Made by a program: the position numbers and the translations under genes. A stretch of 54,124 nucleotides of DNA from assembly GCA_903902965.1 (NCBI GenBank), contig CAIUXE010000086.1, forward strand, positions 1 through 54,124, given 5' to 3'. Below the pieces are notes generated by a model. It ran no database searches. It was not told the DNA's origin and was given only the letters and a program-made list of their open reading frames with translations. Positions 2,373-41,686 of this stretch are shown here, one piece after another; the stretch's first letter is position 1, and each line of letters starts with the position of its first letter. This DNA is from an uncultured Actinomycetes bacterium (GTDB taxonomy: Bacteria > Actinomycetota > Actinomycetes > Nanopelagicales > Nanopelagicaceae).

Positions 2373-3418
2373 GTAAACCTAAAATTGGGATCGCATGTTC
2401 TGCTGAAACTCGCGCCCTCTATTTAGAAAAACGCGATTTAGAACGCTTGAGCAAAATAGCTGATGTCGTAATTGAAGAGTATGACGTCCCATCTGATTGG
2501 GTAAACATTCCAGTGGACCCAGAAGTTGAAGCACGTTTTGCTAAATTCGCAGTAGATCTAGATGTATTGATCGTCTGTCATGGTGGCCCAAGAATTACTA
2601 AGCCAATTTTTGATGCTGGCAAGAAATTAAAAGTTGTTGGCGAACTTGAAGGTGATCGTTTTGCCGGTCGCATCGATGTAATTGCAGCTAAAGAAGCTGG
2701 CGTTATGGTGGTTGATACAACTCACTCATCATCATGGCCAGTATCTGAGTGGGCACTTGCGCTCGCATTAATTGGTTTACGTGAACATGCACGTTTTCGC
2801 GACATTATCGCTGGAAAGAAAATGAGTCATGATGATTACCGCACCAAGCCACCAGCCCGTGAATTAACTGGCAAGAGTGTTGGAATTATCGGTTTTGGTC
2901 ATATTGCATGGCGCTTACGCGAATTCTTAACTCCATTCCGTAATGAGATCTTTGCTTATGATCCTTTTGCACCTCGTGAATTAGCAGATGCGCTAGATGT
3001 TAACTTTGCATCACTTGAAAAAGTAATGGATTGCGATGTAGTTATCTGTCTTGCTCCAGATACCGCTAAGACGCGCAACATGATCGCTGAAAAAGAGTTA
3101 GCGATGCTTAAGCCTGGAGCAGTATTTGTAAACGTTTCACGCGGAGGATGTGTAGATGTCCCTGCCTTAATCGCCAAGGCTGCCAAAGAAGATGCATGGT
3201 TCTGTCTAGATGCGCATAATCCTGAACCAATCGCAGTTGATTCACCATTACGTGGAATGCGTAACGTCTTCCTCTCACCTCACATTGGCGGCATGACTGT
3301 CGAAGCTCAACCTAGATTTTTCACATTGATGGTTGAAGAGTTGGAACGTTGGGTTGATGGCGCAGAACCACGCGCGCAAATTACTGATCGCGTCGTCGCT
3401 GGAAGATCCGGAAAATAA
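2369..3418 (+). CDS. D-isomer-specific 2-hydroxyacid dehydrogenase, NAD-binding
   Basis: GKSVGIIGFGHIAWRLREFL (Rossmann GxGxxA-like), VNVSRGGCVD (catalytic Arg), DAHNPEPI, LSPHIGG (catalytic His). Confidence 0.88.
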   Translation: MSKPKIGIACSAETRALYLEKRDLERLSKIADVVIEEYDVPSDWVNIPVDPEVEARFAKFAVDLDVLIVCHGGPRITKPIFDAGKKLKVVGELEGDRFAGRIDVIAAKEAGVMVVDTTHSSSWPVSEWALALALIGLREHARFRDIIAGKKMSHDDYRTKPPARELTGKSVGIIGFGHIAWRLREFLTPFRNEIFAYDPFAPRELADALDVNFASLEKVMDCDVVICLAPDTAKTRNMIAEKELAMLKPGAVFVNVSRGGCVDVPALIAKAAKEDAWFCLDAHNPEPIAVDSPLRGMRNVFLSPHIGGMTVEAQPRFFTLMVEELERWVDGAEPRAQITDRVVAGRSGK

Positions 3419-22007: not shown

Positions 22008-22041
22008 TTGACCAGGCGAGAGTGGTTCGGCTACTCTCGCC
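22008..22041 (+). promoter_or_regulatory. Candidate promoter for rpsL operon (TTGACC-18-TACTCT) overlapping a 9-bp hairpin
   Basis: TTGACC 22008-22013, TACTCT 22032-22037; GGCGAGAGT (22015-22023) pairs with ACTCTCGCC (22033-22041). Confidence 0.5.
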
Positions 22042-39855: not shown

Positions 39856-40482
39856 ATGGCTCGTTATACCGGAGCAGATTGCAAGCGTTGTCGTCGTGAG
39901 AAAGTAAAGCTCTTCCTTAAGGGCTCTAAGTGCGATGGACCAAAGTGTCCGATCGAATCACGTCCTTACCCACCAGGGCAGCATGGTCGCGGTCGCACCA
40001 AAGACAGTGAGTACTTATTGCAGATGCGTGAGAAGCAAAAGTGCGCACGTATTTATGGAATTCTAGAAAAGCAATTCCGTGGATATTACGAAGAGGCAAA
40101 CCGTCGTCAAGGACGTACTGGTGAAAACCTACTTCGCATCTTGGAAACTCGTTTAGACAACGTAGTTTTCCGTGCAGGTTTTGCAAAGAGTCGCGACATG
40201 GCCCGCCAATTGGTGCGCCACGGTCACTTCTTAGTTAACGGCGAGAAGGTAAATATTCCTTCATACCGCGTAACTGCAAACACGATCATTGACGTTCGTC
40301 CAGGATCACATGACCTAACTCCATTCATCATCGCAAGTGCTGAATTAGGAGATCGTGCAGTTCCGGCTTGGATGGAAGTTGTTGGCTCGAAGTTGAGAAT
40401 TCTTGTTCACGCACTCCCAGAGCGCGCTGTCATTGATACTCAAATTCAAGAGCAGTTAATTGTTGAGTATTACTCGAAGTAG
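39856..40482 (+). CDS. rpsD: 30S ribosomal protein S4
   Basis: ATG 39856 (MARYTGADCKRCRREKVKLFLKGSKC...) with GGGAGGAGAG RBS, preferred over listed 39811. Confidence 0.98.
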   Translation: MARYTGADCKRCRREKVKLFLKGSKCDGPKCPIESRPYPPGQHGRGRTKDSEYLLQMREKQKCARIYGILEKQFRGYYEEANRRQGRTGENLLRILETRLDNVVFRAGFAKSRDMARQLVRHGHFLVNGEKVNIPSYRVTANTIIDVRPGSHDLTPFIIASAELGDRAVPAWMEVVGSKLRILVHALPERAVIDTQIQEQLIVEYYSK

Positions 40483-40509
40483 TAAGAAGTAATAGGTAGT
40501 AGCAGTAAG

Positions 40510-40574
40510 CGAACTTCTCGCCCCGAGAGAAGTTCGTGAAGTTCGTAAGTTGGAGATCAAATAGTGGATCTCCA
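40510..40574 (+). promoter_or_regulatory. Tandem hairpins in the rpsD-rpoA intergenic region
   Basis: CGAACTTCTC (40510-40519)/GAGAAGTTCG (40527-40536), competing TGAAGTTCG (40537-40545); TGGAGATC (40551-40558)/GATCTCCA (40567-40574). Confidence 0.65.
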
Positions 40575-40594
40575 CGAGTTATGGAGGATATCTA

Positions 40595-41686
40595 GTGCTT
40601 ATCGCGCAACGCCCCATCTTGTCCGAAGAAGTTGTGAGTGAATACCGCTCTCGCTTCATCATCGAACCATTAGAGCCAGGTTTTGGTTACACCCTGGGCA
40701 ACTCTTTACGTCGTACCTTGCTCTCTTCAATTCCCGGTGCTGCTGTAACAAGCGCACGAGTTGAAGGCGCACTTCATGAGTTCACCACTCTTGAAGGAGT
40801 TAAGGAAGATTTAACAGAGATCGTTCTAAACATCAAAGGTTTAGTTCTTTCATCAGATAGTGATGAGCCTGTAGTTATGTACATTCGCAAAACTGGCGAA
40901 GGTGTATTAACTGGAGCTGACATTGTTGTCCCAGCTGGAGTTGAAGTTCATAACCCAGAGATTCATATTGCAACCCTTAACGCAAAAGCAAAAGTTGAAA
41001 TTGAGTTAACAGTTGAGCGTGGCCGTGGTTACGTAACAGCTGTTCAAAATAAGCAAGCCGGTCAAGAGATCGGACGCATTCCAATTGACTCAATTTACTC
41101 ACCAGTTCTAAAAGTTACTTACAAAGTTGAAGCAACACGTGTTGAACAGCGCACTGACTTTGACCGTTTAGTACTTGATGTTGAAACAAAGCGTTCAATG
41201 GAACCACGTGACGCAATGGCATCTGCCGGAAAGACACTTGTTGAGTTATTTGGTTTGGCTCGCGAGTTAAATCTTGGTGCAGAAGGAATTGAAATCGGAC
41301 CTTCCATTACTGATGCTGCACTTGCTGCAGATCTTGCTCTTCCAATCGAAGATTTAGATCTAACAGTGCGTTCATACAACTGCTTAAAGCGTGAAGGAAT
41401 TCATAGCGTTGGTGAACTTGTATCTCGCAGCGAAGCAGACCTTTTGGATATCCGTAACTTCGGTTCAAAATCTATTGACGAAGTTAAACTAAAGCTTGTT
41501 GGAATGGGTCTTCAACTAAAGGACAGCCCAATTGGATTTGATCCAACTCAATCACCTGGTTATCACGACAATGGTGATGATGAGGATGAGGAGTTCTACG
41601 TTGTTCCACCAGTAACTCCAATCCACGCAGTTGATCCAATCAGCCCAACTCATTCAGATGTACCAAATTCAGAAACACAAGAGTAG
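40595..41686 (+). CDS. rpoA: DNA-directed RNA polymerase subunit alpha
   Basis: [40 protein letters not shown]-terminal domain [24 protein letters not shown] start. Confidence 0.99.

Follow-up and report, generated by a model that had tools for sequence, protein, structure and literature searches.

The spacer between rpsD and rpoA in an actinobacterial ribosomal protein operon raises the question of whether it holds an RNA element that controls rpoA. The window, by which we mean the whole stretch of 54,124 nt analysed here, comes from a Nanopelagicaceae genome (an acI-type freshwater actinobacterium), whose closest named relative is the MAG Baikal-deep-G34. On its forward strand, rpsD, encoding ribosomal protein S4 (39856-40482; an open reading frame with S4 homologues in 40 of 41 genomes), is the 5′ neighbour of rpoA, encoding the RNA polymerase alpha subunit (40595-41686, GTG start at 40595; open reading frame and homologues). 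Another open reading frame, rplQ (L17; 41708-42421), begins 21 nt past rpoA. Two hairpins are found between the end of rpsD (40482) and the GTG of rpoA (40595). They had been reported in a sequence-only reading as having perfect stems, and both are where that reading placed them.

Hairpin 1 (40510-40536, forward strand) has a 10-bp stem and a 7-nt loop: CGAACTTCTC at 40510-40519, GCCCCGA at 40520-40526 and GAGAAGTTCG at 40527-40536, with an extra G-U pair between 40509 and 40537. A further copy of its 3′ arm, TGAAGTTCG, is present at 40537-40545. Hairpin 2 (40551-40574, forward strand) has an 8-bp stem, with TGGAGATC at 40551-40558, the loop AAATAGTG at 40559-40566 and GATCTCCA at 40567-40574; as RNA, it reads UGGAGAUC AAAUAGUG GAUCUCCA. 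The Shine-Dalgarno sequence of rpoA, GGAGG (40583-40587, forward strand), lies 8 nt past hairpin 2, and its position was compared across spacers. The view that the second stem is unlikely to be a simple terminator held: no T-run follows it, and a terminator scan of the spacer was empty.

We counted perfect stems of 8 bp or longer, with loop sizes of 3-10 nt, in the window and observed 7 against 6.65 expected; for stems of at least 10 bp, 2 were observed against 0.7 expected. Two such stems within 65 nt of spacer are unusual, and this stretch folded better than all of its shuffled versions (200/200, z = -4.57). As the stem frequency is near chance, the sequence alone cannot decide the matter and comparison does. 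On the comparative data, hairpin 2 is raised far above chance.

Comparison of rpoA upstream regions

Spacers from ~110 loci were collected by S4 protein similarity, and so were not selected for the motif. Hairpin 2 was present at the end of all 98 distinct rpsD-rpoA spacers obtained in this way, with rare single deviations in its core. A covariance model, R1, matched 171 of the 197 genomes of the class. For genomes that were negative or weak with R1, we fetched the rpoA loci directly (L171-L196), and all of those whose sequence includes the rpoA start had hairpin 2, often bulged or with a non-standard pair. A census of distinct rpoA upstream regions gave 152/152 in Actinomycetes and 3/30 outside the class; part of the 152 loci had been fetched with the motif, the unbiased sets being the 98 S4-fetched spacers and the rpoA-fetched L171-L196. 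The three positives outside the class were all three genomes examined from one sister class, and they have a bulged A. Hairpin 2 was missing from the other 27 of the 30 upstream regions outside the class, and the other actinobacterial classes sampled were without it. Within the class, it was found in Streptomyces, Micromonospora, freshwater acI bacteria and the other Actinomycetes examined. Each genome had one confident copy. Those weak extra R1 matches that we inspected as possible further regulon sites were chance-like and not tied to operon genes.

The most conserved part of hairpin 2 is a near-invariant core, UCAAAUAGUGGA (40557-40568, forward strand), with the consensus U-C-A-W-A-U-R-G-Y-G-G-N; the loop within it (40559-40566) is closed by the pair C40558-G40567. 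The core was matched with at most one mismatch in 152/152 class sequences, and its positions 1, 3, 5, 10 and 11 (U, A, A, G and G) did not vary in this census. In a Streptomyces-type example, GGGCGUC AAAUAGCG GGCGCCC, the stem is rewritten and the loop is unchanged. The AU-rich single-stranded loop persists even in very GC-rich Streptomyces.

The covariation in rpsD-rpoA spacers that the sequence-only reading had proposed to check proved to be strong in the stem of hairpin 2. Among 75 distinct rows, seven of the eight pairs changed on both sides (128 two-sided cells), and the covariation was 0.563, compared with 0.237 +/- 0.015 after shuffling and a maximum of 0.164 after sliding. Since a count of cells is not a count of events, pair states were mapped on the S4+RpoA protein tree, where parsimony gave ~29 double compensatory changes. 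Inner pairs were seldom broken except pair 10-21, in which U is constant and the opposite base is A, G or U. Judged from these alignments, the compensatory pattern is the signature of an RNA, not of a DNA palindrome.

Two variants of the hairpin were also observed. A single bulged A (or C), placed 3 nt from the closing pair on its 5′ side, was seen repeatedly, in several distinct lineages (L173, L182, L199, L243, L244 and others). Streptomyces smaragdinus (L096, spacer at about 3128-3267) has hairpin 2 twice in tandem before rpoA. In the upstream one, ACCGGUGC CAUAUGGCGG GUACCGGU, the stem is complete and the U preceding the core is missing.

Attachment to rpoA and proposed function

In the 98 spacers that were not fetched by the motif, the distance from the loop of hairpin 2 to the rpoA start was 25.7 +/- 1.8 nt, and that from the rpsD stop to the loop was 60.1 +/- 22.7 nt. 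The core sits 21-29 nt upstream of the rpoA start codon. The gene order is rpsM-rpsK-rpoA in three families (f3, f13 and f33), whose S4 comes from a divergent gene elsewhere. Hairpin 2 was still found before rpoA in 6/6 checked genomes of these families, and none was found near the displaced rpsD at nine such genes. Hairpin 2 belongs to rpoA, not to rpsD. The tight spacing to rpoA, the loose spacing to rpsD and the persistence without rpsD imply that it probably gives rpoA a control distinct from that of the ribosomal genes. Thus, the earlier suggestion that this spacer separates rpoA expression from that of the ribosomal proteins is probable as far as hairpin 2 is concerned, but not by way of the competing arms to which it had been linked.

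A consistent position upstream of one gene and a covarying RNA structure are the marks of cis-regulatory ribosomal-operon leaders, and hairpin 2 shows both. From the sequence comparison, we consider it rather probable that hairpin 2 acts in cis, throughout the class Actinomycetes, as the translational operator of rpoA. A trans-acting protein would recognise the loop together with the C-G pair that closes it and the adjoining U and, once bound, would hinder loading of the 30S subunit at the adjacent Shine-Dalgarno site. Translation of rpoA would be lowered, and with it that of rplQ, 21 nt further, through coupling. Both genes could then be controlled independently of S13, S11 and S4 made from the same mRNA. 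Repression is assumed here as the direction, as is usual for such elements.

The loop is near-invariant over a wide range of base composition, for which a binding partner is the best explanation. Hairpin 2 leaves the Shine-Dalgarno sequence unpaired and would therefore exert only weak control in the absence of a protein. Sequestration of this site by the 3′ arm (a UCUCC/GGAGG pairing is possible in the window) was considered and rejected, since the stems change freely in other taxa and the pairing is not conserved. The likeliest ligand would be a product of the same operon, namely one of the RNA-binding ribosomal proteins L17, S11 and S13, or alpha itself. S4 is disfavoured as the least likely ligand, because hairpin 2 belongs to rpoA and not to rpsD: an S4-bound operator would be expected beside rpsD, but the hairpin was absent at the nine displaced rpsD genes and present at rpoA without rpsD. 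We also searched for rRNA mimicry. The core with its stem (up to one mismatch) had no primary-sequence match in the 16S/23S rRNA of four class members, the complement of the core gave no convincing site either, and the lack of a look-alike of core and stem in rRNA counts against an operator with a ribosomal protein as its ligand. A wider reading is that hairpin 2 represents an RNA family dedicated to alpha, an ancient operator of Actinomycetes through which alpha or a ribosomal protein of the operon controls rpoA translation and links RNA polymerase to ribosome supply; we regard the case for this as evenly balanced.

Alternative readings of the two hairpins

Hairpin 2 might instead be an RNA processing site: its AU-rich loop, or the sequence beside it, would be recognised or cleaved by an endonuclease (RNase E/G or J type), which would detach the rpoA-rplQ mRNA from that of the ribosomal proteins and give it a stability of its own. 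This would likewise set rpoA apart, as the hairpin is placed exactly between rpsD and rpoA, and the retention of an AU-rich loop even in very GC-rich Streptomyces fits it. However, as far as is known, such enzymes have looser recognition needs, which are exceeded by near-invariance at almost all loop positions together with tight spacing to the start codon. In addition, cleavage in the loop would destroy the conserved stem. We consider a processing site unlikely.

It is also conceivable that the hairpin is a structural aid without a ligand, holding the region before the Shine-Dalgarno sequence in a fixed shape as a standby site or as insulation. The fixed distance to the start codon agrees with this, and insulation may be required against the strong, unrelated hairpins just upstream that were found in 40 of 86 spacers (z < -2). 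Nevertheless, a ligand-free aid would not explain why the loop is near-invariant across 152 sequences when the GC content of the class ranges widely, which makes a purely structural role quite unlikely.

An element acting at the DNA level, either an rpoA promoter or a palindromic repressor site, is very improbable. The A+T-rich core CATATAG could resemble a -10 element, but a -10 element has a conserved A at position 2, which is missing in the TCAWAT register, and a promoter scan of the spacer revealed no promoter-like site. Retention of pairing while the stem sequence is free is the reverse of what a protein-binding palindrome shows.

Least credible is the model of the sequence-only reading, a two-state attenuator or switch built from hairpin 1 and the second copy of its 3′ arm: both pairings of the 5′ arm are feasible on paper, and hairpin 1 of the sister sequence L003 still pairs despite a G-U substitution, but the single-state energies (-15.2 kcal/mol for partner A vs -9.3 kcal/mol for partner B) leave partner B with 0.7% of the ensemble against 99.3% for partner A, and neither the number nor the sequence of the repeat arms is constant within the genus, and the whole arrangement is absent from other genera. 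From the comparison of sister spacers, the supposed second 3′ arm is a single unit of a degenerate, genus-level 9-nt tandem repeat, GAGAAGTTC / GTGAAGTTC / GTAAGTTGG (40527-40553, forward strand), which extends into the beginning of the 5′ arm of hairpin 2. The repeat has ~3 units in the window and 4 in sister genomes, where its letters are altered. Absence of the paired arms from sister genomes had been named as evidence against the model, and the extra arm of hairpin 1 was indeed not retained by them. Hairpin 1 itself was common only to sequences of the same genus (L003/L032 and, weakened, L004), and other genera were without it. Since many other lineages carry strong, unrelated hairpins in this part of the spacer and others carry none, hairpin 1 is to be counted among many local structures that change fast.

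Relation to known leader RNAs

Rfam 15 gave no match to the rpoA hairpin; searches at the gathering threshold and at E values up to 10 returned only sub-threshold chance matches. In E. coli, S4 controls the alpha operon's ribosomal genes and leaves the alpha cistron unrepressed, and alpha is stated to be regulated independently (2023 review, PMC10931766). The S4 leader of the E. coli alpha operon (Rfam Alpha_RBS type) resembles hairpin 2 in being an RNA element of the same operon that controls translation, which for hairpin 2 is a prediction. It differs in being an S4-bound pseudoknot before rpsM, whereas hairpin 2 is a simple hairpin before rpoA that persists without rpsD. The E. coli leader model did not match hairpin 2 at E values up to 10.

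Leaders of this operon for S4 and L17 are known in other lineages or positions, and none for rpoA alone (Eckert and Weinberg 2020, PMC7247131). The S4 leaders of Bacteroidia, Flavobacteria, Clostridia and Fusobacteriales (PMC7247131, Table 1) were also predicted, and lie upstream of operons with rpoA and rplQ. Unlike the rpoA hairpin, they belong to other phyla, their gene sets start with rpsM or rpsD, and their ligand is S4. The L17-Actino-Proteobacteria leader RF03132 (PMC7247131) is found near a start codon of the same operon in actinobacteria, but it consists of two hairpins before rplQ, in contrast to the single hairpin before rpoA.

RF03132 had no match in the window or at rpoA spacers, and its matches were solely before rplQ. 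It co-occurs with the rpoA hairpin in three Streptomyces-type operons (RF03132 at L101:4330-4385, L081:4274-4330 and L095:4283-4335). As rplQ has its own leader in these loci, L17 need not be the ligand of the rpoA hairpin there. In the window, which is without this leader and in which rplQ lies so close behind rpoA, the rpoA hairpin could serve both genes, and rplQ is probably under the same control as rpoA. The loop of the second RF03132 hairpin, ACCUGAUACG, ends in AUACGG and bears a loose resemblance to the rpoA loop, which could hint at a shared ligand.

The coat operator of phages R17/MS2 has a short stem, a loop recognised by a protein and an adjoining Shine-Dalgarno site. Hairpin 2 is alike in its short stem by the Shine-Dalgarno sequence and, in several lineages, in an A that bulges out of the 5′ strand (compared by eye). 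The length and sequence of the loop differ.

No description of an rpoA leader hairpin was found in open-licence full texts, and the body text of a survey of 50 bacterial genomes including Streptomyces does not mention rpoA (PMC11109978). Hairpin 2 represents a strong and apparently undescribed RNA family. It provides a concrete candidate for independent control of rpoA, conserved across the Actinomycetes examined. With a 30-nt motif and its covariance model available, such control becomes directly testable.

Two observations concern terminators. Many Nanopelagicaceae (loci L036, L037, L043, L046, L052, L054 and L057) have a run of at least 5 T directly past the rpsD stop, where a terminator stem was not seen. 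Elsewhere in the window, a perfect 9-bp hairpin, GGCGAGAGT/ACTCTCGCC (22015-22041), lies ~30 nt past a TAA that apparently ends a reading frame; a T-rich stretch follows ~24 nt beyond it, and it is possibly a terminator.
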